Source: an uncultured Clostridia bacterium
GTDB taxonomy: Bacteria; Bacillota; Clostridia; Oscillospirales; UBA644
Length of the DNA: 64,000 nucleotides
Direction: 5' to 3'
Assembly (NCBI GenBank): GCA_948443805.1
Contig: CAOJUB010000010.1
Location: 1-64,000, forward strand
Shown here in pieces: positions 40,923 to 54,380 of this stretch. The translations under genes were made by a program, and so were the position numbers. The notes beneath the pieces were generated by a model. It searched no databases. It was not told the origin of the DNA and saw nothing but the letters and a program-made list of their open reading frames with translations. Numbering within the stretch: the stretch's first letter is position 1; the number at the start of each line of letters is the position of its first letter.

Positions 40923-41021
40923 ACAGGCTTTTTGTATTCGCTGAGGTTGGCGTAGGCTTTGTGGTCTCAGAAACCTTGCTTTGTAAGCTTTTGCGGTTGC
41001 CGTCGCCCCGTAGCGTTGCGC

Positions 41022-41169
41022 CACCGGTGTTTTTCCGGTGCAAAAAAAGAACAGCAAGCTGTTTCAAAGAACAGTAATCTGTTCTTATGAAAAATAACCA
41101 TTTTAACCTTTCGGTTGAATATCCGTTCCGGATAACCGCTTGTTCTCGGCGTAAAATTCATGGTACAAT
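41022..41169 (+). repeat. Hairpin-chain repeat element, copy 1
   Basis: A run of short palindromes: CACCGG/CCGGTG (41022-41040), AAGAACAG/CTGTTCTT (41067-41086, perfect 8-bp arms with a TAAT loop), TTAACC/GGTTGAA (about 41102-41116) and TCCG/CGGA. It ends in AAAATTCATGGTACAAT, whose TACAAT may be the -10 box of the next gene. The order and sequence match copies at 51205-51419 and, in part, 54241-54359. The 100 bases to its left (40923-41021) are non-coding and unexplained. Confidence 0.7.
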
Positions 41170-41205
41170 GAAAGAATATTTGTGTAAAAGGGGGAAGATT
41201 TGCCT

Positions 41206-41745
41206 ATGCAAACAAAGGAGTTCTTTATAAAAGGAGTAAAACTAACCATTATTGAAAAGCCGGAGTTTGAGATGGTGGGATACAAACAGCCGGTGAATTT
41301 GGGCGACGGCTCCATCGGGGCGTTTATTCATCGGCTGACTGAAGACGGAAAAATAAAAAAATTGGAAGAAACACTTGCGGCGCCGCAGCAGATATGGGTC
41401 TGTTTATCGGACTGTCAGTCCTGTGGCCTGGGTTGTTCTGGTTTTCAGGTTTGTTGCAGAGTTTGTGTTGAAAAAACAGCGGCGCACGATTTTTCCAAAT
41501 TTGCTGACGGCGAAATATCTGCATTCCACTTGGACGCTTCGGAATGGGTACTTTATGAAACGAAGGACAAACAGTCTACTGAGAATTTGCACAAAATCGG
41601 TGCTTACGAATTGGTTAAGGAAATCGGTTATCGATGGAATGAAAACATCCGGCTTCATTTCGATAATGAACATGAATGCTTCAATAAGGATGGGTGGATT
41701 GCTGGTAAAACGTACCATTTTCTTTTACCTGTGGTTCCTGTGTAA
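41206..41745 (+). CDS. GyrI-like effector-binding domain protein
   Basis: A 179-residue stand-alone small-molecule-binding (SRPBCC-unrelated GyrI/AraC-effector) domain. Features are the N-terminal VKLTIIEKPEFEMVGYKQPV strand pair and a C-terminal GYRWNENIRLHFDNEHE plus WIAGKTYHFLLPVVPV. A Cys-rich insert (CLSDCQSCGLGCSGFQVCCRVC, six to eight Cys within 22 residues) is unusual. It lacks a DNA-binding domain, so it may sequester a ligand or modulate another protein. ATG 41206 and TTG 41200 are both possible starts behind AAAAGGGGGAAG. Its promoter seems supplied by the repeat element upstream. Confidence 0.75.
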   Translation: MQTKEFFIKGVKLTIIEKPEFEMVGYKQPVNLGDGSIGAFIHRLTEDGKIKKLEETLAAPQQIWVCLSDCQSCGLGCSGFQVCCRVCVEKTAAHDFSKFADGEISAFHLDASEWVLYETKDKQSTENLHKIGAYELVKEIGYRWNENIRLHFDNEHECFNKDGWIAGKTYHFLLPVVPV

Positions 41746-41822
41746 AATGAGCAGGCATCTTTGCCGGCGCTGCCCGAAAGCGTTATTGTGAGTTTTATGT
41801 TTTCAGAAGGTTATCTATAGTG

Positions 41823-41862
41823 AAAATCGAGGTGCAGTCAACAGACTGCACCTCGATTTTTA
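41823..41862. terminator. Bidirectional terminator between the GyrI-like and amt genes
   Basis: AAAATCGAGGTGCAGTC pairs perfectly with GACTGCACCTCGATTTT around a four-base loop. Confidence 0.93.
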
Positions 41863-42009
41863 AGTTTTCAGTGAAATCTCATTATTTTTTTGCAGGATTA
41901 TCTCTTGTTTCTAACGCGGCTGTGAAAGATTCCGATTCCATGCGGGGATACCTTGCCTGAGCCGGCAGAAAAGCAGAGAGGTGTTTCCCCGAACCTCGGA
42001 ACGGGTTTT

Positions 42010-43701
42010 TTATTCCACGTCCTGCAATGCGTCATAGCCTTCTTCTCCGGTACGAACCTTGACTACGTTTTCCACATGATAAACAAAGATTTTTCCGTCG
42101 CCGACATGGCCGGTATAAAGAACTTTTTTCGCGGTTTCGATAACGGTGCTGACCGGAACCTTGCAGACAACAATATCTACCTGAACTTTCGGCAGCAGCG
42201 ACGGCGCCAGTTCTACGCCCCGGTAGTATTCCGGACGGCCTTTCTGCAATCCGCAGCCCAGTACGTGCGATACTGTCATTCCGGTGATTCCGATTGCCAT
42301 CATGGCGTTTTTCAGCGCTTCAAAGCGGGCTTCCTTGCAGACAATTTCTATTTTTGTCATTTTCAGCCCGTTTTCCGGCTGATCAAAGGTGGGAATACTC
42401 TTAACTTCAACGGCTTCGGCCACAGGAACCGTACCGGTTACTTCCACCGGCGCGTCTCCGGAAAGGGCTTCCACGGTCGGAACAAAATCGGCGTAAGCAT
42501 TGGGAAGTCCGTGTTCTGTTGAATCCAGCCCGGCAATTTCTTCCTCCGCCGTTACCCGCAAACCATGCGTCTTTTTTATAATAAAGAAGACTGCCGTCAT
42601 CAGAATGACCGTATAAAGCGCGATGGCTCCGACACCGAGCGCCTGAATTCCGAGAAGCTGAAAACCGCCGCCGTAAAACAGGCCTTTTAAGGGGGTTGTT
42701 CCGTTTCCTGTAGCGAACAGGCCGACGGCAATTCCGCCGAACAGACCGTTTGCACCATGTACGGCGACCGCACCGACCGGGTCGTCGATATGCAATTTCA
42801 AATCTAAGAGTTCTACTATGACAACAACCAGAATTCCAGCAATTGCTCCGACAATTGCCGCGCCGATGGCGTCCAGATCAGCGCAGCCTGCCGTAACGGC
42901 GACAAGGCCGGCAAGAGAGCCGTTCAGACACATGGAGACGTCCGGTTTTCCGTTTTTGATCCAGGTAAAGGTCATGGTGGAAACGGTGGCAATCGCCGCG
43001 GCTATGGTTGTTGTTCCGAAAATCTGGGCCAGTTCTGCCGTATCGCCCGCCGCTGCTCCGTTAAAGCCGTACCAGCCGAACCAGAGGATGAAAACGCCGA
43101 GCGCACCGATAACGATGTTATGGCCGGGGATTGCCCGGACTTCGGTTTTTCCGGTTTTTTTGTTTTTAAAATATTTCCCGATCCGGGGCCCGAGAAGGAT
43201 TGCGCCGATCAGGGCTGAAATTCCGCCGACCATATGGATTGCCGAAGAACCGGCGAAATCTACATAACCCATCTGCTGAAGCCATCCGCCGCCCCAGACC
43301 CAGTGCGCTTCGATGGGATAGACAACCGCGCTGATTACCGCGGAATAAATGCAGTAGGCGCTGAATTTTGTCCGTTCCGCCATCGCTCCCGAAACAATGG
43401 TGGCCGCTGTGGCGCAGAATACCAGATTAAAAGCAAAATTTGCCCAGTCATATCCGGTAAAATCGGTAAACAGGCGGAGCGAAGGCGTTCCGATCAGCCC
43501 GAAAAAAGCGTCTTCGCCCAGCATCCGGCCGCCGCCTAAAAGAACAAAAACCACTGTGCCAAGACAAAAGTCCATTAAATTTTTCATAATGATGTTTCCC
43601 GCGTTTTTGGCTCGGGTAAATCCGGATTCTACCATGGCAAAACCTGCCTGCATGAAAAAAACCAACGCGGTTCCCATCAGAAACCATACTGTCATATCCA
43701 T
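42010..43701 (-). CDS. amt: Ammonium transporter fused to a PII domain
   Basis: A 563-residue fusion. Residues 1-410 are an Amt/MEP/Rh channel with about 11 helices; key segments are FFMQAGFAMVESGF, the HWVWGGGWL and DFAGSSAIHMVGG pore motifs, and ILWFGWYGFNGAA. After a linker (about 410-450) the C-terminal 112 residues are a PII protein, MTKIEIVCKEARFEALKNAM through GDGKIFVYHVENVVKVRTGEEG. In separate systems GlnK blocks AmtB; here the regulator is tethered. The T-loop region RPEYYRGVEL keeps Tyr residues that could be modified. ATG 43701 has GAGGAGGAAG upstream. A terminator hairpin lies in the leader. Confidence 0.93.
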   Translation of the reverse strand: MDMTVWFLMGTALVFFMQAGFAMVESGFTRAKNAGNIIMKNLMDFCLGTVVFVLLGGGRMLGEDAFFGLIGTPSLRLFTDFTGYDWANFAFNLVFCATAATIVSGAMAERTKFSAYCIYSAVISAVVYPIEAHWVWGGGWLQQMGYVDFAGSSAIHMVGGISALIGAILLGPRIGKYFKNKKTGKTEVRAIPGHNIVIGALGVFILWFGWYGFNGAAAGDTAELAQIFGTTTIAAAIATVSTMTFTWIKNGKPDVSMCLNGSLAGLVAVTAGCADLDAIGAAIVGAIAGILVVVIVELLDLKLHIDDPVGAVAVHGANGLFGGIAVGLFATGNGTTPLKGLFYGGGFQLLGIQALGVGAIALYTVILMTAVFFIIKKTHGLRVTAEEEIAGLDSTEHGLPNAYADFVPTVEALSGDAPVEVTGTVPVAEAVEVKSIPTFDQPENGLKMTKIEIVCKEARFEALKNAMMAIGITGMTVSHVLGCGLQKGRPEYYRGVELAPSLLPKVQVDIVVCKVPVSTVIETAKKVLYTGHVGDGKIFVYHVENVVKVRTGEEGYDALQDVE

Positions 43702-43772
43702 TTTATCTCTTCCTCCTCTTATTCCAAACCGTCCGGAAGCGGCGCCTGCTTGAAGCGGTTTTTCAAAAAAAG

Positions 43773-43802
43773 AAAGACGCCGGAGAAAACTCCGGCGTCT
43801 TT
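43773..43802 (-). terminator. Terminator hairpin in the amt leader
   Basis: AAAGACGCCGGAG pairs perfectly with CTCCGGCGTCTTT around four bases. Read on the minus strand it is followed by CTTTCTTTTTTT. It lies between the amt promoter and the amt start, beginning about six to ten bases after the predicted transcription start. Confidence 0.85.
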
Positions 43803-43816
43803 GCCTTTCTATTTGG

Positions 43817-43845
43817 ATTATACCACAGCAATGCCGTTTTGTCAA
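43817..43845 (-). promoter_or_regulatory. Promoter of amt
   Basis: TTGACA (43845-43840), 17-bp spacer, TATAAT (43822-43817), a perfect consensus. No alternative promoter is visible between the hairpin and the gene. Confidence 0.88.
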
Positions 43846-43924
43846 CCCTTTTTTCCCGGGAAAACTTATTTTCTGGTAAAATAGATGGAATCACAGGCAA
43901 AGTTTGATAGATTTCGGTTTATTT

Positions 43925-44899
43925 TCACAAGGAGAGAGGAGGGGCTGTTTCTTTTTTGGGGGAAATGAAAAGAACGCAGAGAATCGCCGTCAGCAAAACA
44001 ATCGTCACCGGGAGCCCGCCTTCCGGCCCGAAAGCGCCCCCATCCAGCAGCGGTTTGCCGGTTTGTTCAAAAACAAACACCGAGGGCATTCCCTGCATTC
44101 CGCTGACACTCAGGCCGAAAAGATTTCCCTGCGCAAAGTTCCAGATGGAGTGGATCGCCGCAACGCCCCAGATATTGCCGCTTTTCAGCATGTATACCGA
44201 GGCGAAGAATCCGAATAAAAACAGGTTGATTACCGCAAGCGTAGACAGGCCGCTGTTCAGCGAGTGAAGCAGGGCAAACAGCAGTGAATTGGTCAGAACG
44301 GCGGCGATGACGGAATTTTTTCTGGCCGAAGAGATCATAAAATATCCCCGGCACAGGACTTCTTCGTTCATCCCCTGAAAAACAAAGCCGAAAAAGAAAA
44401 AAATCAGCATTATCGGGGAGAAATCGGGGGAAATGCCGATAAACCGGAATCCTCCGAAAAGCATTCCCAGCAAAACCACGGCGCTGAACAGAAGCAGCCC
44501 GATCAGGAGACCCTTTCCGTAGTGAATCAGCGCATGTTTTTGTTGAAAACCGACGCTTCTGAGATTCCGTTTTTCCAAAAAACGGCAGTAAAGCAGATAA
44601 ACAGCGGTCGCGGCCAGCGTCAGATACAGGCTGAACAGAATTGTTCCGTCGGGGAAAAGCCCTTCTGGGTCGGAAAGCAGTTCAACCAGCGAAGCCGGAT
44701 CGTCTGAAAATACGGCGGAGAAAAAAGTAGGGGAAAGAAACAGACGTACAATCATAAAGACAACGGTAACAGCGCCTTCAACGGCGGTACCGCTAAAAAA
44801 CACCGCGATAAAAATCAGAATTTCCAGCCAGAGTTTATGGCCTTTTCCTGTTTTTTTTGCTTCTTCCACAAGCGAAAACTGTTGTTTGAAAAAATTCAT
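43925..44899 (-). CDS. CPBP-family intramembrane metalloprotease
   Basis: A 324-residue membrane protein with about eight helices. The catalytic motifs are complete: NEEVLCRGYFM (EExxxR, about residue 192), FALLHSLNSG and IHSIWNFAQGNLFG with the third-motif His and Asn. Family members process prenylated proteins, bacteriocin leaders or anti-sigma factors; the substrate here is unknown. GGAGGAG precedes the ATG. It lies 60 bp downstream of the LRR-dockerin gene on the same strand and may share its transcript. Confidence 0.85.
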   Translation of the reverse strand: MNFFKQQFSLVEEAKKTGKGHKLWLEILIFIAVFFSGTAVEGAVTVVFMIVRLFLSPTFFSAVFSDDPASLVELLSDPEGLFPDGTILFSLYLTLAATAVYLLYCRFLEKRNLRSVGFQQKHALIHYGKGLLIGLLLFSAVVLLGMLFGGFRFIGISPDFSPIMLIFFFFGFVFQGMNEEVLCRGYFMISSARKNSVIAAVLTNSLLFALLHSLNSGLSTLAVINLFLFGFFASVYMLKSGNIWGVAAIHSIWNFAQGNLFGLSVSGMQGMPSVFVFEQTGKPLLDGGAFGPEGGLPVTIVLLTAILCVLFISPKKETAPPLSL

Positions 44900-44958
44900 T
44901 GGCTCCTCCTTTACACCGTTTTCCGGTGCGTTTTCTTTATCTTTATATGGATGCGTTT

Positions 44959-47528
44959 CTATTCAGCCGTTTTTCGTGTGCCGACCGGATAGGGCAGGTT
45001 TTTCCATTTTGCCAGATACCGTGCGATGACGACTGCCTCGGCCGCGGTAATGTCTCCGTCGTTATTAAAGTCTGCGGCCTTTTTGCTGAACTTTCCGTCC
45101 ATCTGCCATTTTGCCAGATAGCGGGAAGCAAGCACCTTATCTTTGGTTTCAACTCTTCCGTTTTGATCCACGTCTCCGAGGAGAATCTCTTCGGTTTCCT
45201 GTGCTTGAAATACAACGGGCAGTCCTTTCAAATCTCCGTAGTCGCCTGAGAGATTGATAATCCGGTTCCACTCGGCTTCGGTTCCCAAATAGATGATCTG
45301 CGACAGATTTGGGCAGGAAACAAACGCGGACGGTTCGATGATGGTTACGCTTTTGGGAATGGTTACGTTTTCCAGACTGGTGCAGCCGGAAAAGGCAAAT
45401 GAATGAATTTTGGTTATATTTTTTGGAACAGTAATCGTTGTTAAAGAAGAGCAATGGCTGAACATCCCCATACTGATTTCGGTTAAACTGTCAGGAAGAT
45501 TTACTTTTTTTAATGATATACATTGGTCAAATACAAAAGAGCCATATGATTTTACGTTTGATGGGATCGTTATTTCTGTCAGGGAATGGCAACCGGAAAA
45601 TGCTTGGCTTTCGATTTCTGCTATGTTTTCCGGAAGAGCAATGCTTTTTAGGGCAGTACATCCGTTTAATGCATTCGAACCTATTTTCGTTATACTCATT
45701 GGAAGTTCTATCTGCGTTAACGAAGAACAAGCGATAAAAGCGAAATCATCAATTGTTTTAACCCCTTCTGAAAGAATAACTTTTTTTAATGAAACACAGC
45801 TGTTAAAAGTCCATTCTTTTACCGACAAAACATTTTTTGGAATGATTATTTGTTCAAGTGATGTGCAAGATGAAAATGCGTTTGATCCAAGTGTATTTAG
45901 ACTGGAAGGCAGATGATATTGGTAAGTGCTGTGCAACAGCCGAAAGCATGGTCTTCAATGGTTGTTATTCCTTCGGGAATTGTTAACTTTTTTAAATGTG
46001 AGCAGTAAGAAAACGCATCTTTGCCAATGGCCGTTACCTTGACTCCATTGATTTCTGAAGGAATTTCCACAGAAGTCACATTTTCAGAGCAATCAACGAT
46101 CGTTCCGGTCGATTCATCGAAAGTCAGCGTTCCCCCGATGACGCCGGGGAGAGAGACTTCGATGGGCGTTTGCGGGAGAAAGGAGATTTCTACATTTTGC
46201 AGAATGTCATTCCCCTCTTCTTCTATTGTAACGCCGTTCCATGATTCTTCAGTTCCCCGGAAAACGAGTGTTGATAACGATTGACAGGAAAAAAAAGCTT
46301 CAGAACCGATTTTTTTGATCGTACCGGAAAGCGTTACTGTTTGCAGCGAGAAACAGGATTGGAACATCTGGTATTCCAGCTCTGAAACCGAGGCCAGAAA
46401 ATCTACAGTTTCCAAAGAGGGACAAAACGAAAAAAGGTTAGAGCCGCAAGTCGAAACCGTTGACGGTATGGTGATGTTTTTTAAAGAAGGACAACTCGAA
46501 AACACCGTATTCCCGAGTTCTGTCACGCTGGCAGGAATGGAGATTTGTTCCAGCTTCTGGCAGTTATGAAAAGCCAGCGATTCGATCCGTTCTACGGAGG
46601 ATGGGATCGACCGTACGGTAAGGGTTTGCCCTTCCGGGCAGAGAAGCAGCGTTTTTTTGTCTTTGGTATACAGGATATCGTCGAGCGCCGTATAGGTCGG
46701 GTTTTTTGGTGAAACTGAGATGGATTGCAGCGAAATGCAGCCGGAAAACGCCCCGTAGCCGATTTCTGTTACATTTTCGGGAATAACGATGTGTTTGAAA
46801 GAAGTGCAGTCGAGAAAGGCATAGTCTTCTATTTTTTTCAAAGATTCCGGAAGATTCAGTTTCGGCAGCGCTGAACAGCCGGAAAATGCGGCGATCCCGA
46901 TTTCCTGAATTGTGTGGGGAAGGATGATTTCTGACAAGTGTGCACAAGATGAAAACGCATTTTGATCGATCCGGATTGTTTGTTCCGGGATCGAGCGAAC
47001 CGGTGTGTCTCGTCCGCTGGGACAGAAGAGAAGAGTTTTTCGATCTTTTGTATACAGAATGTTATCCTGAACTGTATACGTTTCGTTCAGCGGAGAGATT
47101 TCGATTGTTTTCAGATTGGAACAATTGAGAAAGGCCCATTGATCGAGGAATTCCAAGCTTGCCGGAAAAGAAACCAGTTCCAGTGAGGAACAGCCGGAAA
47201 AGGCGCCGAACGGAACGATAAATAACCCTTCCGAGAAAGAAATCTTGGTTAGCTGCCGGCAGGAGGCAAACGCGTTTGCCCCCACTTCCAAAACGGTTAC
47301 TCCGTTGATTTCCGGCGGAATTTCCGCGGAAGTTACCGCCGGGGAGCATCCGGTGATCGTGCCGGTCGATTCATCGAAGGTCAGCGTTCCCCCGACGACG
47401 CCGGGAAGCGAAATTTCAATGTCCGCCGCTTTAACGGGAACGGAAACTCCCGGGAAAAAGTGTACGGCAAAAGCCGCCGCAAACAGAATAGCAAAATGCC
47501 GGAAGAAACGGCTGTTCTTTTTTTTCAT
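44959..47528 (-). pseudogene. Secreted leucine-rich-repeat protein with dockerin, split by a frameshift
   Basis: One gene read in two frames. The 5' part (47528-45897, about 543 residues) has a signal peptide (MKKKNSRFFRHF...VKAAD) and BspA-type LRR_5 repeats. It stops at a TAA after CTALTNIICLPV. The next frame continues the same repeat at once (HLPSSLNTLGSNAFSSC) through ten more repeats to a type I dockerin (GDVDQNGRVETKDKVLASR and NNDGDITAAEAVVIARYL). The break is near 45911-45922 and is repaired by inserting one base. The LRR part contains two copies of a SLPGV-GGTLTFDESTGTI block (about residues 40 and 470). AGGA precedes the ATG. Either a true frameshift or a sequencing error; no slippery site is apparent. 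Confidence 0.88.
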
Positions 47529-47581
47529 ACAATGTCCTGCTTTCGATAAAAATAGAATCATGGCGCAAAAAAATCCGGCGA

Positions 47582-49540
47582 TTATGATGGGGTTTGCTCC
47601 TGTTCCAGTGCTTCCAGCTCCGTGAGCCAAACGGCCGCCGAGGCGTCGGACGGCATTCGCCAGTCTCCCCGTGGAGAAAGGCTGATACTGCCGATTTTCA
47701 CACTGTCGGGCAGGCAGCTGCGCTTGAATTGCTGAGAAAAAAAACGCCGGCAAAAATTCTTCAGCCAATGGAGAATTTCTTCCCTGCTGAATTCTTTGGC
47801 GAAGGCTTTTTCGGCCAAAAAGAGTATTTTCGCCGGAGAGAAGCCAAAGCGGAGCAGATAATACAGAAAAAAATCGTGCAGAATATACGGCCCGACAAGC
47901 TGCTCGGTTTTCTGTGAAATACTTCCGTCTTTTTCGGGGGGCAAAAGTTCAGGGCTGACCGGCGTTTGCAGAATATCGGAAAGAACCTCTGCGCTTTCGG
48001 GGAACAAACGGGATTTTATCAGGCTTTCGATCATCCACCGGATCAGGGTTTTCGGAACGCCGGCATTGACGCCGTACATGCTCATATGGTCGGCGTTATA
48101 GGTGCACCAGCCTAGCGTAAGTTCGCTCAAATCGCCGGTGCCTACTACAAGCCCGTTTTTCCGGCCGGCCACATCCATTAAAATCTGGGTGCGTTCCCGT
48201 GCCTGCGCGTTTTCATAGGTCAGGTCGTGTTGGGCTTCGTTCTGGCCAATATCCCGGTAATGCAGCCGGCAGGCTTCACTGATATTGATTTCTTCCGCCG
48301 TCACGCCGAGAAGTGCCATGAGTTTTGTTGCATTGTCATAGGTCCTTCCGGTCGTGCCGAATCCCGGCATGGTAATGCCGATAACATCGGAAACCGGGCG
48401 GTTTTGTTCTTTCATCGCCTGAACCGAGACCAGCAGGGCAAGGGTGGAATCCAGCCCGCCGGAAACCCCAACAACCGGACGGCAGCCGGTTGCCGAAAGA
48501 CGTTTTTTCAGCCCGGCTGTTTGCAGGGCGAAAATTTGCAGACACCGTTCTCTGCGGACTTTTTCGCCGGCAGGGACAAACGGTTGTTTTTCCGGAAAAA
48601 GGAATTTTCCGTCGCTTGCCGGAACAAATCCGGGAATCTCTATTTTCCGAAACGGCTTGGTGGGATAATAGGTTGCGGCGTCCTGAAAGGTTTTCTGTTT
48701 TTTTCTGTCCGTGCGGATTTTTCCGAGATCCAGGTCGGCAAAGACAAGCGTTTTTTCGGTGACCGGCGGTTCGCTTTCGGCGAGAACCGTTCCGTTTTCT
48801 GCAATGATGCTGTGCCCGGAAAAAACAAGATCGGTTGTGGATTCCCCCGCGCCAGCAGAGGTGTAGACATAGGCGCAGAGCAGACTTGCCGACTGCTGTT
48901 TTACCAGATTTTTTCGGTATTCCCGCTTGGCGATCAGTTCATTGCTTGCCGAAAGGTTAAAAATCATTTCCGCTCCGTTCATTGCAAGAAAGGCCGAGGG
49001 TGCAACCGGCGCCCAGAGGTCTTCGCAAATTTCTATGCCGAAAGGGAAACCGCCAGCCTGAAAAATCAGATCGTTTCCTACCGGAATGGGTTCTTGTTTC
49101 AGGCCGAAAAGCGAGGCGCTGATTTCGGTTTCTGAAAGCGCTGACGCCGAAGAAAACCAGCGTTTTTCGTAAAATTCCAGATAGTTCGGAAGAAAAGTTT
49201 TCGGCACAATTCCATAGATTTTCCCCTGAAAAAGAACAATACCGCAATTATACAATTGTCCCCCGATTGTTATGGGAGCGCCGATTGCGACAATGCCGCG
49301 GAACCGGCGGGAGGCTTTTGCTATTTCGTTGATTCCCTGATATACCGCCGAAAGCAGCGGTTCCTGAAAAAAGAGATCCGCCGCCGTATAGCCGCAGAGG
49401 CAGAGTTCCGGGAACACGGCAGCGTCAGCTTTTTCTTTCTGGCACTGTTCAATTTGCCGGCAAATTCTTTGTGTGTTTTTCGGAACATCGGCCACCTCCG
49501 TTTCGGGTACGCAGCAGGCCGCCCTGAACAGATCAAACAT
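47582..49540 (-). CDS. nadE: Glutamine-dependent NAD+ synthetase
   Basis: Last step of NAD synthesis: amidation of nicotinate adenine dinucleotide with glutamine-derived ammonia. The 652 residues comprise an N-terminal nitrilase-type glutaminase (Glu in FPELCLCGYTA, Lys in VPKTFLPNYLEFYE, Cys in GIEICEDLWAP) and a C-terminal synthetase with the PP-loop VGVSGGLDSTLAL (about residue 355) and VGTGDLSELTLGWCTY. Length matches the two-domain form. Upstream on the same strand are traX and the phosphopantetheinyl transferase; the LRR gene follows by 53 bp. Confidence 0.95.
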   Translation of the reverse strand: MFDLFRAACCVPETEVADVPKNTQRICRQIEQCQKEKADAAVFPELCLCGYTAADLFFQEPLLSAVYQGINEIAKASRRFRGIVAIGAPITIGGQLYNCGIVLFQGKIYGIVPKTFLPNYLEFYEKRWFSSASALSETEISASLFGLKQEPIPVGNDLIFQAGGFPFGIEICEDLWAPVAPSAFLAMNGAEMIFNLSASNELIAKREYRKNLVKQQSASLLCAYVYTSAGAGESTTDLVFSGHSIIAENGTVLAESEPPVTEKTLVFADLDLGKIRTDRKKQKTFQDAATYYPTKPFRKIEIPGFVPASDGKFLFPEKQPFVPAGEKVRRERCLQIFALQTAGLKKRLSATGCRPVVGVSGGLDSTLALLVSVQAMKEQNRPVSDVIGITMPGFGTTGRTYDNATKLMALLGVTAEEINISEACRLHYRDIGQNEAQHDLTYENAQARERTQILMDVAGRKNGLVVGTGDLSELTLGWCTYNADHMSMYGVNAGVPKTLIRWMIESLIKSRLFPESAEVLSDILQTPVSPELLPPEKDGSISQKTEQLVGPYILHDFFLYYLLRFGFSPAKILFLAEKAFAKEFSREEILHWLKNFCRRFFSQQFKRSCLPDSVKIGSISLSPRGDWRMPSDASAAVWLTELEALEQEQTPS

Positions 49541-49575
49541 AATGGTTCACTTTCTTTCTTTTTCTCTTTCTCTTT

Positions 49576-50331
49576 TTAACTGCCGATCATAACCCCGATA
49601 TTTCCGTACAGAACAATTCTCAGGATTCCGCAAAGGATTAAATGCAGCGGGTAGTAAAGATAAAAAAACCATTTCATGCCTTTCCAGCTGCCCCTTGTTC
49701 CGTTATATTGCTTCAGCAGAGGAATAGACAGCGCCGTAAACAGTTGAATGACACCGTAGACCGGATCGATAAAGAGCACATATACGGCGGCATATATGGC
49801 CGTCCAAAAGAACATCCACGCCATTTGTTTTTTGAAATTTCCGCGGTTCTGGCCGAGAGAAACAATCGCCATAACGGCAATGCAGCTCCAGTCGGAACAA
49901 AAAGTTATCAGGCAGATCCCCAGCAAAATCAATGTTTTGCACCAGTTTTTCAAGCGGGGATTTTCCGAAACGGCAAGAGCGATTAGCCCCCAGGCTAGAG
50001 ACCAGATTACGCTGGTCTGATTAAAAAAGGAAGTCTGGAACGGAAGAAAGGGGATGCCGAATGCAAAATTATAGGCGAAATGGGAAATCAGGGCAAAAAA
50101 GAACAGTCTTCCGGCGTATTTTTTTAAATTTTTCGTGTAGAAGTAGCCTTCCGCAATAAAAAACCACATGATCGGTGCGGTCAGCCTGCCGAGGATATGA
50201 ATCCCAAGAATCCACCAGTCTTTCGGGTAATTCGGGAAAATCACCGAGACAAGATGGTCGGCAGTCATCGCGAGAATGGCAATAATCTTCAATTGATTGG
50301 CGTTGAATCCGCCTTGTTTTTTACCGGACAT
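49576..50331 (-). CDS. TraX family membrane protein
   Basis: A 251-residue protein with about seven or eight membrane helices. The family start NANQLKIIAILAMTADHL, GRLTAPIMWFFIAEGYFYTKN and the C-terminal FYLYYPLHLILCGIL match TraX, which in the F plasmid N-acetylates pilin. Chromosomal TraX homologues are widespread in Firmicutes and are thought to be acyltransferases of unknown substrate. GGAGCGC precedes the ATG. Thirty-five bases separate it from nadE. Confidence 0.87.
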   Translation of the reverse strand: MSGKKQGGFNANQLKIIAILAMTADHLVSVIFPNYPKDWWILGIHILGRLTAPIMWFFIAEGYFYTKNLKKYAGRLFFFALISHFAYNFAFGIPFLPFQTSFFNQTSVIWSLAWGLIALAVSENPRLKNWCKTLILLGICLITFCSDWSCIAVMAIVSLGQNRGNFKKQMAWMFFWTAIYAAVYVLFIDPVYGVIQLFTALSIPLLKQYNGTRGSWKGMKWFFYLYYPLHLILCGILRIVLYGNIGVMIGS

Positions 50332-50385
50332 TTTTATTGCGCGCTCCTTTCTGAAATCAGGAAATTTTTCGCTTGGTTTGCCGAT

Positions 50386-51054
50386 TCAATCCGAATATTT
50401 TGATTCGGCAAAGGCGAGGATTTCTTTTGCATGAACCGCTATCGGCGTTGGTTGTGTGTCTATTTTTTTCTGGCATAGCGCAAGGGAAAAGTCGGGATGA
50501 CTCATTTGATAAAAATCTTTTTCATATCGATGGAACAAGTGGCCGGATTCAGAAAAATCAAGCTGGGAAAGATCTCCGGAAATTCCTTTTCCGGTCTGTT
50601 TGACATAGCTTTCTTTTAATGTCCAGAATCGGGTAAAGGCTGCTTGAGGATTTGACGACAATGCAATTTCCGCCTGTTCTTTCTGGCTGCATACCCGCCG
50701 GAGAACAGCCGGGGAAACCGGGCGGGGTTCCTGTATGTCGATCCCGGTTTCTCCTTCGGTTTGATCCGAAAGGGAACAGGCCGCGCCTTTTTGGCAGTGG
50801 CTCAGGCTGAAACAGGCCGACGTAAACTTCCAATAAGGTTTCCCTGTTTGGGTATAGGAAAATGGTTCGTTTTTCGGCAGGAGAATCCGGTATTCCTGAT
50901 ACAGCGCCAGCGCCAGCAGAAGATAGGTTGCAACGCAGTTGTTTTGATCGCCGGGGTTTCGGTATCTTTCGGCTTTTTGCCGCCGGTCAGGCGGAAGAAA
51001 GCGGAGAAAATGTGAAAAATCAACCTGGTGCAGCGTATCGCAATAATAGATCAT
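50386..51054 (-). CDS. Sfp-type 4'-phosphopantetheinyl transferase
   Basis: Transfers phosphopantetheine from CoA to a serine of carrier proteins. The 222 residues carry SLSHCQKGAACSLS, GIDIQEPRPVSPAVLRRVC (Mg-binding Asp, about residue 105) and RFWTLKESYVKQTGKGI (W-x-x-KE-x-x-K, about 155). This is the Sfp type associated with peptide or polyketide synthases rather than AcpS, yet no carrier-protein gene is in the window. ATG 51054 has GGGGAGGAAG upstream; the longer frame reaches through the promoter. Confidence 0.9.
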   Translation of the reverse strand: MIYYCDTLHQVDFSHFLRFLPPDRRQKAERYRNPGDQNNCVATYLLLALALYQEYRILLPKNEPFSYTQTGKPYWKFTSACFSLSHCQKGAACSLSDQTEGETGIDIQEPRPVSPAVLRRVCSQKEQAEIALSSNPQAAFTRFWTLKESYVKQTGKGISGDLSQLDFSESGHLFHRYEKDFYQMSHPDFSLALCQKKIDTQPTPIAVHAKEILAFAESKYSD

Positions 51055-51204
51055 AGGCTCTTCCTCCCCGCCGTTTTCTTCATGATACACTTTTCGGTTG
51101 CGGTTGTCAACGCTTTTTTCTTGAAGAAATTGCGAAATCTGAAAAAGAATGGGATCGTTATTTGTTATAAATGGTTTTATGGAACAACGAACATGAAAAT
51201 TCTC

Positions 51205-51419
51205 TTGCAATTCTGCATAGGCCGTGGTATAATAAAGAACAGCAAGCTTGTTCTAAGGCACAGTAAACTTGTTCTAAAGCACAGTAAACTTGTTCTAAAG
51301 CACAGTAAACTTGTTCTAAAGAACAGTAAACTGTTCTTGGGAAAAAAGCGTTTCAACCATTCGGTTGAAGTTCTGTTCCGGATTCCCTCTTTTTTCCGGT
51401 GCAGAATTCATGGTAAAAT
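51205..51419 (+). repeat. Hairpin-chain repeat element, copy 2, with 21-bp tandem repeats
   Basis: A promoter (TTGCAA 51205, 17 bp, TATAAT 51228) leads into five tandem units of 21 bp (51239-51338) built on ACAGTAAACTTGTTCTAAAG. The last unit is the palindrome AAGAACAG-TAAA-CTGTTCTT. Then come TTCAACC/GGTTGAA (51351-51369) and GAATTCATGGTAAAAT at 51404-51419. Order and sequence match copy 1. A reading frame through the tandem units is an artefact of the 21-bp period. Confidence 0.78.
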
Positions 51420-51429
51420 ATATACGCAG

Positions 51430-51481
51430 AAAGTTTTGCTATGCAAAACTTTGCGGCTTTGCCGCTCCGTGCGGAACACGG
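51430..51481 (+). repeat. Cluster of three hairpins beyond repeat copy 2
   Basis: AAAGTTTTGC/GCAAAACTTT (10-bp arms), GCGGC/GCCGC and CCGTG/CACGG lie end to end, each with a three- to five-base loop. They continue the hairpin chain but have no counterpart in the right flank of copy 1. Confidence 0.65.
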
Positions 51482-51492
51482 TATAGAATCAA

Positions 51493-51530
51493 TAAAAAAA
51501 GAAGCCGTACCTGTTGGGATCGGTACGGCT
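51493..51530 (-). terminator. Terminator of the CoA-disulfide reductase gene
   Basis: GCCGTACC and GGTACGGC arms; read on the minus strand the stem is followed by TTCTTTTTTT. Confidence 0.9.
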
Positions 51531-51535
51531 ATCTG

Positions 51536-53206
51536 TTACTTCTGTTTGGCGCAGCTGTATTCGGGAACGGTTTTTTCATGAATCACCGATTCATAGAGCC
51601 GCCAGCCGCCTGCTAGATTAAAACAATCATAGCCGTTTCCGGCAAGAATGCGGCAGGCAATATAACTGCGCAGGCCGCTGTGGCAGTGAATATAAACCGG
51701 CTTGTTTTTGGGGATCTCACCGATACGTTCCCGTAGCGAATCCAGCGGAATATTCATAAATCCGTCTATTTTTCCATGCCGGACTTCGGCTTCTGTTCTT
51801 ACGTCAAGGAGCGTTGCGCTTCCGTCTCGGGGCAGTTTTTTTACATCGTGCCAGAAAAATTGTTTGATTTTTCCTGTGACGATGTTTTCTCCGACAAAAC
51901 CGAGCATATTGACCGGGTCTTTCGCGCTGCCGAAAGGCGGCGCATAGCACAGTTCAAGCGTTGTAAGGTCGGTGATTTTCGCACCGAACCGAATCGCTGT
52001 CGCGAGTATGTCCATGCGTTTGTCAACCCCATCAAAACCGACGATCTGTGCCCCGAGGATTTTCTTTGTTTTTTTATCCCAAAGCGCTTTGATCGACATA
52101 TTGACGCCGCCCGGATAATAGGAAGCGTGCGGGGCGGAGTAAAGATAGGTTTTATCGTAATCGATCCCGGCTTCCTTGGCCTGCTGTTCATTCAGCCCGG
52201 TGGCTGCCACCGTCATATCAAAAAGCTTCAGGATGGCCGAACCCTGCGTTCCGGTATATTCGCTGTCAAAGCCCGCGATGATGTCGGCCGCAATCCGACC
52301 CTGCTTGTTTGCCGGACCGGCCAGCGGGAGAAAAGCCGGTTTTCCGGTAATAAAGTCTTGGATTTCAACCGCATCGCCTACGGCATAAATATCGGGAATA
52401 TTGGTTTTCATGTTTCGGTCAACAAGTATACTTCCGCGGCGGTTGGTCTGAATGCCGCATTCCTGTGCCAATGCGGTTTCCGGACGAACGCCGACCGACA
52501 GAATCGCCATATCGGCGCTGATTTCACCGTTCTGCAAAAGGATTGTGCGGCCGTTCATTGCCTGTACGCCGTTGTTCAGATAAAGCCGGATTCCTTTGGA
52601 TTTGATATAGCGGTGAACCTCCGCTGCCATATCAAAATCAAGCGGCGCGATCAGGTGGTCGGCAAGTTCCACAACCGAGACTTTCAGCCCGGCCTCTTTT
52701 AAATTTTCGGCCATTTCTATGCCGATGTAACCGCCTCCGATGACCACCGCCGATTTTGGTTTTTTGTTTTCGATAAAAGTTTTTATCCGTAAGGCATCGG
52801 GAATATTGCGCAGCGTAAACACTCTATCGCTGTCGATTCCCGGGATGTCCGGCTTTATCGGTTCCGCGCCGGGAGAAAGGATCAGGGTATCGTAGTTTTC
52901 AATATCGGATTCTCCCGTTTTCCGGTTTTTTACGGTGACAGTTTTTGCCTGGGCATCGATTTTTATCGCTTCGCAGTTCGCGCGGACACGAATCCGGAAC
53001 CTTGCCTGAAAACTTTCGGGCGTTTGCAGCGTTAGGTTCTTTTTTTCGGGGATGACGCCTCCGATAAAGTACGGCAGTCCGCAGTTGGCAAACGAGACGT
53101 ATTCTCCGCGCTCCAGAATGGTGATTTCCGCCTTTTCATCCAGCCTGCGCAGCCTTGCCGCTGCGGAAGCGCCGCCGGCAACGCCGCCGATAATCACTGT
53201 TTTCAT
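51536..53206 (-). CDS. cdr: CoA-disulfide reductase/NADH oxidase fused to a rhodanese domain
   Basis: A 556-residue flavoprotein. FAD motif IIGGVAGGASAAARLRR is at the N-terminus, the active-site Cys is in SFANCGLPYFIGG (Cys42), the NADH motif is VVIGGGYIGIEMAENL (about 152), and YAVGDAVEIQD is the second FAD motif. Residues about 460-556 form a rhodanese domain with active Cys in YIHCHSGLRSY. CoADR-rhodanese fusions reduce CoA disulfides or polysulfide/persulfide. It is divergent from a Crp/Fnr gene 38 bp away and close to thioredoxin, so a thiol or sulfur redox role fits. Confidence 0.92.
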   Translation of the reverse strand: MKTVIIGGVAGGASAAARLRRLDEKAEITILERGEYVSFANCGLPYFIGGVIPEKKNLTLQTPESFQARFRIRVRANCEAIKIDAQAKTVTVKNRKTGESDIENYDTLILSPGAEPIKPDIPGIDSDRVFTLRNIPDALRIKTFIENKKPKSAVVIGGGYIGIEMAENLKEAGLKVSVVELADHLIAPLDFDMAAEVHRYIKSKGIRLYLNNGVQAMNGRTILLQNGEISADMAILSVGVRPETALAQECGIQTNRRGSILVDRNMKTNIPDIYAVGDAVEIQDFITGKPAFLPLAGPANKQGRIAADIIAGFDSEYTGTQGSAILKLFDMTVAATGLNEQQAKEAGIDYDKTYLYSAPHASYYPGGVNMSIKALWDKKTKKILGAQIVGFDGVDKRMDILATAIRFGAKITDLTTLELCYAPPFGSAKDPVNMLGFVGENIVTGKIKQFFWHDVKKLPRDGSATLLDVRTEAEVRHGKIDGFMNIPLDSLRERIGEIPKNKPVYIHCHSGLRSYIACRILAGNGYDCFNLAGGWRLYESVIHEKTVPEYSCAKQK

Positions 53207-53243
53207 TAATATATCAACCTTCTTTCCGAAAGGAATTTTTGCT

Positions 53244-53918
53244 ATGGGACAAAATTTGTTTGAGCCTGTTTACCGGAAGATTTTTCCGTTTTGGAATGAA
53301 ATTCCGGAATCGGACCGGGAGTTTATCTGCCGGAATTCTTTTTCTCTGACCTATCCAAAGGGCGCGGGGATTCATGACGGAAACGAATGCTCCGGTGTGA
53401 TTTTTGTCCGCTCGGGTAGCCTTCGTCTTTCTATGATGTCGGAGAACGGCAAGGATATTACCCTGTACCGTTTGCATCCGGGGGATATGTGTATGCTGTC
53501 CGCTTCCTGCGTGTTGCAGTCTATCACTTTTGACGTGTTTGTCGAGGCGGAGGAAAACAGCGAGTGCTATGTGATCAGCGGCCCTGCTTTTGCGGAAGTT
53601 GCCGCCCGGAATCCGCAAATCAAAATATTTGCCCTGGAAACGGCCGTCAGCCGTTTTTCAGATGTGATGTGGGTAATGCAGCAGATTCTTTTTATGAGTA
53701 TGGATAAGCGGCTTGCCATTTTTCTCACAGACGAATCTGCCCGGACAAATTCCGATATGATTCTGCTGACTCACGAGCAGATTGCCCGCTATATGGGGTC
53801 TGCCCGTGAGGTCGTTTCGAGAATGCTGAAATATTTTGCAAATGAAGGCCTTGTTGAAGTCTCCCGCAAGGGAATAAAAATTCTTGACAAAAAGCGGCTG
53901 CGGAAATTAGCCCTCTAA
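53244..53918 (+). CDS. Crp/Fnr-family transcription regulator
   Basis: A 224-residue regulator. Residues 20-130 form the cyclic-nucleotide-binding beta-roll (GVIFVRSGSLRLSMMSENGKDITLYRLHPGDMCMLSASCVL). A helix-turn-helix of Crp type follows (THEQIARYMGSAREVVSRMLKYFANEGLVEV). There is no N-terminal cluster of four Cys as in FNR; scattered Cys at CRNSF, NECS, MCML and SCVL might sense redox state. ATG 53244 has AAAGGA upstream; the longer frame lies antisense within cdr. It sits divergent to cdr and overlaps thioredoxin at its 3' end, so these are likely targets. Confidence 0.9.
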   Translation: MGQNLFEPVYRKIFPFWNEIPESDREFICRNSFSLTYPKGAGIHDGNECSGVIFVRSGSLRLSMMSENGKDITLYRLHPGDMCMLSASCVLQSITFDVFVEAEENSECYVISGPAFAEVAARNPQIKIFALETAVSRFSDVMWVMQQILFMSMDKRLAIFLTDESARTNSDMILLTHEQIARYMGSAREVVSRMLKYFANEGLVEVSRKGIKILDKKRLRKLAL

Positions 53919-54215
53919 CATGGCGAGTATCTGCGGTTTCGGTTTTGCACCAACGGCCTGTTGAACGATTTTCCCGTTTTTCATAACAACCAGCATGGGG
54001 ATGCTTGCCACGCCAAAAGCCTGCGCCAGCGCCGGTTCTTCGTCTACATTGATTTTTCCGACCAGGTACTGCGGGTTTTCTTCTGCAATTTCATCCACCA
54101 GCGGGGATACCATGCGGCACGGTCCGCACCAGTCGGCATAAAAATCGAGGAGAACCGGCTTGTCGCTGTTTTTTACCGAATTGAAGTTTGTGTTGTTTAC
54201 ATGCAAAACTGACAT
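53907..54215 (-). CDS. trxA: Thioredoxin
   Basis: A 102-residue thiol-disulfide reductant. The active site is ADWCGPCRM (about residues 27-35), with the cis-Pro in VASIPMLVVMKNGK and the usual VDEEP loop. Length is standard. It overlaps the 3' end of the Crp/Fnr gene by 12 bp in convergent orientation. Its leader is about 130 nt and consists of the hairpin element at 54241-54359; an upstream palindrome may be a Crp/Fnr site. Confidence 0.95.
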   Translation of the reverse strand: MSVLHVNNTNFNSVKNSDKPVLLDFYADWCGPCRMVSPLVDEIAEENPQYLVGKINVDEEPALAQAFGVASIPMLVVMKNGKIVQQAVGAKPKPQILAMLEG

Positions 54216-54240
54216 CGTTTATAACTTCCTTTCTGTTGTT

Positions 54241-54359
54241 TGTGAGAATTGTATAATGCGCTGAATTGTTCTCTGTGAAAACGGCGGCGGCGCAATGCGC
54301 TGTTCGGCGGGATAGCCGAAAGATGTTATTCCCAAGAACCGTTTACTGTTCTTATTATA
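54241..54359 (-). repeat. Hairpin-chain repeat element, copy 3 (trxA leader)
   Basis: On the minus strand the element starts at TATAAT (54359-54354) and reads AAGAACAG-TAAAC-GGTTCTTGGGAA, as in copy 2, then TTCGGC/GCCGAA and GCGC/GCGC hairpins, ending 25 bases before the trxA start. It would form most of the trxA 5' leader. Confidence 0.65.
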
Positions 54360-54380
54360 CCCCTATTTTTATCTCTGTTT

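Follow-up and report, generated by a model that had tools for sequence, protein, structure and literature searches.

Modular hairpin repeats, probably mobile, located directly downstream of sigma-A promoter -10 motifs in an uncultured Oscillospirales bacterium

Three repeat chains in the window

Three copies of a hairpin-containing repeat were found by re-reading the sequence of the window, i.e., the whole stretch of 64,000 nucleotides that was analyzed, essentially at the coordinates given in a first-pass annotation. Copy 1 lies just upstream of a GyrI-like ORF (41200-41745), copy 3 is part of the trxA leader (start codon ATG, 54215), and copy 2 has no same-strand gene downstream, all in agreement with that annotation. 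Two further ORFs were judged by eye: an ammonium-transporter-like ORF with a PII-like stretch at the C-terminus (42010-43845, minus strand) and a flavoprotein disulfide-reductase-like ORF with a rhodanese-like stretch at the C-terminus (51536-53206, minus strand). At 44959-47768 (minus strand), two overlapping ORFs resemble a single BspA-like leucine-rich-repeat protein and are probably frame-shifted or split; the downstream one of the two (44959-45936) has dockerin-like repeats at its end.

The copies had been described as sharing one ordered set of palindromes. This holds for the first hairpin, termed H (AAGAACAGYAARCTGTTCTT), which is the same in copies 1 to 3, and fails for the part behind it, where two module types occur: module A, with the TTCAACC/GGTTGAA hairpin noticed before, in copies 1 and 2, and another module, B, in copy 3. 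A search of the window for GAACAGTAAACTGTTC with up to three mismatches resulted in 11 matches, compared to 0.44 expected and a maximum of 3 in 100 shuffles.

Copy 1 (plus strand) is decayed, and no clear promoter is seen at the head of the chain. It opens with the 3′ half of a B unit (41012-41041, ...GTTGCGCCACCGGTGTTTTTCCGGTGC), assigned by comparison with the B consensus, and continues with a degenerate (41047-41066) and a second H hairpin (41067-41086, AAGAACAGTAATCTGTTCTT). Module A follows at 41089-41146 with a decayed outer stem and two inner hairpins, as identified by alignment A7 and the R1 model match (41057-41162, 78.9 bits, E 3.6e-18). The conserved tail with a terminal extended -10 (CGGCGTAAAATTCATGGTACAAT, 41147-41169) adjoins the GyrI-like ORF on its upstream side, and this gene may have taken over the terminal TACAAT.

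Copy 2 (plus strand) is headed by the sigma-A promoter TTGCAA-N17-TATAAT with a TG before the -10 (51205-51233, 10 of 12 matches), followed by an array of five H hairpins with a period of about 21 (51235-51338), module A (51341-51396; R1 match 51309-51412, 95.4 bits, E 8.0e-23) and the tail with a joint -10 (CGGTGCAGAATTCATGGTAAAAT, 51397-51419). Beyond 51419, it continues with a third module, C, which is truncated, had been overlooked and reaches from 51411 to about 51483 (R3 match 51411-51497, 62.7 bits, E 1.1e-11). Copy 3 covers 54362-54256 on the minus strand and consists of a -10 (TATAAT, 54359-54354) and hairpin H (54353-54334), together 54334-54359, and of module B in the trxA leader (54256-54333; R2 match 54256-54362, minus strand, 77.3 bits, E 6.5e-19). 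Its -35 is weak (GAAACA, 3 of 6). Copies 2 and 3 had both been annotated earlier with a TATAAT immediately before the first hairpin. Transcription of the copies, taken as apparent before, is predicted from promoter-like sequence only.

Module architecture and distribution of the family

Dispersed hairpin repeats are common. The first-pass annotation had read the element as such a dispersed, non-autonomous repeat and not as an insertion sequence, and this reading clearly stands, since further copies are abundant genome-wide. In the genome of 1.81 Mb, the models matched 63 times for unit A (R1), 65 times for unit B (R2) and 21 times for unit C (R3), the first two counts overlapping because the A and B models cross-detect each other's units. 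In total, the family comprises roughly 50 sites with at least 60 units; the catalogue of sites was built from model and pattern searches and from individual stretches, and all genomes are draft assemblies. Allowing up to two mismatches, GAACAGYAANCTGTTC was found 45 times per strand in the whole genome, compared to one or two matches for a reversed control.

The units have lengths of about 104 nt (A), about 108 nt (B) and about 130-150 nt (C). Each of them begins directly 3′ of a TATAAT, and they are chained head-to-tail via joints of the sequence TGGTATAATA, an extended -10 here called P. The resulting layout is P-unit-P-unit...-P, for example with the order C-A-A (C7:50160) or B-C-A-B (C1:282286). 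Module A is composed of an outer stem (GAAAAAAGCG/CGCTTTTTTC) around two hairpins (TTCAACC/GGTTGAA and ATCCG/CGGAT), module B of an outer stem AAAAA/TTTTT around TTCGGCT/AGCCGAA and GCGC/GCGC, and module C of a closing stem around three hairpins, which is followed by a conserved 3′ hairpin. The tail CGGTGCGAAATTCATGG is common to A and B, and the 3′ terminus TTCATGGTATAATA to all three. Near-identical C units are located in unrelated flanks at C1:42213 and C4:102423, and diverged units (C17:39777, C5:45265, and C14:21351) keep the layout with a new sequence.

Modules A and B are known only from this genome: the R1 model found A in none of 58 relatives, and the P+H pattern gave no match in pattern scans of GTDB r220 and IMG/VR, in which records of the own genome may be hidden. 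For module C, a species-restricted repeat is overturned by the R3 search over 394 genomes of the order, 32 of which (own genome included) carry the module, often in tandem, in 24 of 168 genera. Its occurrence is sporadic, with 5 of 24 species in one genus. A phage or plasmid origin was also considered and discarded, as no match was obtained among phages or plasmids. At L251, L259, L278, and L288, the terminal TATAAT of module-C arrays is followed by 12-45 nt of a further, incomplete unit, which looks like the result of a cut through the array or of a copied target stretch.

Position relative to promoters and an orthologous empty site

At 50 chain starts, a TTGACA-like hexamer is located exactly 17 nt upstream of the first TATAAT of the chain. 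The mean match to TTGACA at this spacing is 4.02 of 6, compared to 1.65 ± 0.15 in shuffled sequences (2,000 shuffles, maximum 2.12), and at all other spacings scanned between 10 and 25 it ranges from 1.0 to 1.84. The TATAATs at unit ends have a -35 score at background level, with 1.75 for A, 1.39 for B and 1.75 for C. While the first -10 of a chain matches in at least five of six positions in 45 of 50 cases, this applies to only 36 of 62 unit-end -10s, suggesting that it is the head promoter that is used. The same positioning is seen outside this genome, where 47 module-C sites have a -35 match of 3.26 vs. 1.64 ± 0.16 in shuffled sequences. In the window, copy 2 fits the rule well and copy 3 only weakly.

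Earlier, the element had been thought to supply promoters. This could not be upheld, since the -35 and the spacer at the chain heads differ among sites and the orthologous promoter described below is present without the element; the contribution of the element itself is limited to a 3′-terminal extended -10, and this motif is decayed in old copies. To judge from these sequences, the chains begin at pre-existing sigma-A promoters of the host. Most of them precede a gene on the same strand as part of its leader, the downstream genes having been called from ORF length and Shine-Dalgarno matches alone. Their products, read by eye from the sequence, appear unrelated and include DegV-like, Nudix-like and LysR-like proteins, an alcohol dehydrogenase, UMP kinase, MATE, a penicillin-binding protein, thioredoxin and others.

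Filled and empty states could be compared at a single orthologous locus, with the unit in the genomes G325 and G289 and without it in G276, G301 and G395, the last being more distant. In G301, the empty site reads TTGATT-N17-TATAATGATTGCAGAAAACAAGAG, whereas G289 is identical to it up to AAAACA and continues with the unit and then with TGGTATAATGATTGCAGAAAACAAGAG. The net insertion amounts to 134 bp between 23-bp direct repeats (TGGTATAATGATTGCAGAAAACA), and this repeat is present as a single copy in G301. In the outgroup G395, whose 1-kb flank is only 62-64% identical, the same TTGATT-N17-TATAAT promoter (-35, spacer and -10) is present without a unit, and the promoter is therefore older than the insertion at this locus. 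In G301, the 14 nt after the -10 are shared with the unit start; a loss scar is possible in G301 and G276, not in G395.

In a tree of the flanks, filled and empty sites alternate (G325 with G276, G289 with G301). Two units at the orthologous promoter (L272 and L273) differ at 3 of 152 positions, with 79% identity of the 1-kb flanks. Taken together, this indicates either that the same unit arrived twice or that it was precisely lost twice while being conserved; both would fit mobile DNA, and neither would fit a conserved leader.

Interpretation and relation to known repeats

The element probably represents a family of non-autonomous, non-coding, modular and mobile repeats that insert specifically at the -10 of sigma-A promoters. 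The terminal TTCATGGTATAATA of one unit can act as the joint for the next, leading to mixed head-to-tail chains, and recombination between the repeated joints could account for chain growth and loss. As the -35, spacer and -10 of the host would stay upstream, an insertion would do little harm, which may be the reason for the persistence of the chains at promoters of unrelated genes. An insertion locked to the -10 would turn the element into the 5′ leader of host mRNAs, the intact host promoter presumably transcribing the chain as a structured leader. Several observations count against this explanation: some chains, like copy 3, lack a good -35, copy 2 leads to no same-strand gene, a Y1 transposase is present in only about half of the carriers, the empty sites of G301 and G276 could be loss scars, and the alternating flank tree demands repeated precise loss or independent insertion.

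A regulatory or stabilizing role of the RNA, proposed in the first-pass annotation, would mean that the fold of the 5′ transcript has been retained because it controls the stability, termination or translation of the mRNA. The chains are indeed located in 5′ leaders directly behind a promoter, the units fold more stably than shuffled sequence, and the stems covary, with scores of 0.122 vs. 0.090 (A), 0.161 vs. 0.103 (B) and 0.183 vs. 0.122 (C), in each case above all of 500 shuffles that left the relatedness among units in place. The covariation collapses in all three modules once the pairing partners are slid. However, selection on the fold of the transcribed strand, as expected of a functional leader RNA, is not apparent from the stems, in which 25 G-U vs. 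24 A-C events were counted, nor from the stability of sense and antisense RNA, which is equal for A and B and favors the antisense fold in 38 of 48 module-C units of other genera (p 0.003; L246-L295). A conserved leader RNA should favor the sense strand, and the absence of such a preference speaks against it, as do the unrelated downstream genes, the many congeners without the element and the lack of a same-strand gene behind copy 2. Rfam likewise offers no relative, with only tRNAs found in the window and no match for the units in eight loci at E up to 1. A role of this kind is thus disfavored and was judged unlikely. Among the sequences searched, a sub-threshold T-box leader was noted in the own genome (L143:814-1065, 86.1 bits, gathering 93) and a T-box adjoining a tRNA in another genome (L254:3083-3512, 111.7 bits). 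The antisense-leaning folds of module C are reminiscent of elements that are recombined as a folded bottom strand.

It appears very unlikely that the repeat acts as a promoter carrier in the manner of Correia elements, with the 3′ extended -10 as an outward promoter for the next gene. Unit ends of the form CATGGTATAAT, with a TG before the -10, would suit such a function, as would copy 1, where the chain head lacks a clear promoter and TACAAT is found just upstream of the GyrI-like ORF. Against this, the terminal -10s have no -35 (mean 1.4-1.75 of 6) and are decayed in many cases, while the head promoter is kept and exists without the element. An array of operators, in which a repressor would bind the GAACAG-N4-CTGTTC palindromes and the sites would form a regulon, is in line with a palindrome fixed just behind the -10 at many promoters, but can hardly be reconciled with the rest of the data: the palindrome varies in sequence with its pairing kept (GAACAACAAGTTGTTC), longer unrelated hairpins replace it at C5:45265 and C14:1-71, module C follows the -10 directly without any palindrome, and the genes are unrelated.

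Several known repeats resemble the family. BOX of Streptococcus pneumoniae, in the excerpted description by Croucher et al. (2011; PMC3049150), is a dispersed, hairpin-rich mosaic of tandem modules (boxA-(boxB)n-boxC) with terminal inverted repeats, judged parasitic; some copies are transcribed and may act on co-transcribed genes. Compared by description and not by sequence, the module mosaic and tandem amplification of that excerpt recur here (C-A-A, B-C-A-B), whereas a fixed place behind a -10 does not figure in it and A and B have no terminal inverted repeats above chance. The mobile bcr1 of the Bacillus cereus group has 100-400 bp and dozens of copies per genome and is linked to one or more TTTAT repetitions as well as to a mechanism resembling site-specific recombination (PMC6542083); in the present family, by contrast, the motif corresponds to a functional promoter's extended -10, and the chains consist of mixed modules. 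In kind, the element would work like BOX and bcr1, with membership in either not assigned.

Correia elements are small non-coding repeats that affect transcription, one of them immediately downstream of the mtrCDE promoter (PMC10969869). They have terminal inverted repeats and carry promoters, whereas the head promoter here is that of the host and no complete outward promoter was found on the element, its 3′ extended -10 being without a -35. Terminal inverted repeats as in MITEs are absent from A and B (5.1 and 4.5 matches in 20 nt vs. 5.2 and 4.9 in shuffled sequences) and weak in C (8.6 vs. 5.5), partly because TATAATA is nearly palindromic. The 23-bp direct repeat at one insertion, single in the empty ortholog, would fit a target duplication. 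A simple duplication of constant sequence seems unlikely, as the left and right -10s differ at most sites; duplication-like ends occur at two sites of the own genome (TAGAAT on either side of C12:50637, TAAAAT at C5:70940).

REPINs, which depend on RAYT/Y1 transposases, are hairpin-forming, non-autonomous, dispersed and locally amplified (PMC8049555). Subterminal hairpins (behind TATAATA and near the 3′ end) and insertion 3′ of a fixed TATAAT are shared with REPINs and IS200/IS605 elements, whereas an inverted REP pair is lacking. A Y1 transposase (Y1_Tnp, PF01797) was discarded as the probable mover, being present in 17 of 32 carriers, lacking in 15, and absent from the own assembly, which is 98.85% complete; since draft assemblies may miss multi-copy genes, this absence only makes Y1 less likely.

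Within the reading as a promoter-directed mobile repeat, a more specific and tentative proposal is a promoter-homing class, whose units would integrate, always in one orientation, into the -10 region that RNA polymerase melts in open sigma-A promoters. Transcription initiation would then itself mark the insertion target. Speculatively, a melted -10 as the target would explain position and orientation together and would suit hairpin-forming single strands; a single-strand mechanism would also fit the strand-neutral or antisense-leaning hairpins and the fact that A and B are without terminal inverted repeats.

No earlier description was found in the open-licence literature on TATAAT insertion, gut Clostridia repeats and mobile promoters. 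What appears to be new is that the repeat is coupled to sigma-A promoters with single-base precision in different genera, and such a fixed distance from the -10 in many genera would amount to a new target rule in bacterial mobile DNA. If this is true, a notable share of the 5′ leaders in these bacteria would be parasitic sequence, and the element could serve as a natural promoter mark in uncultured bacteria. It would also allow a clear-cut test of open transcription complexes as targets for insertion.
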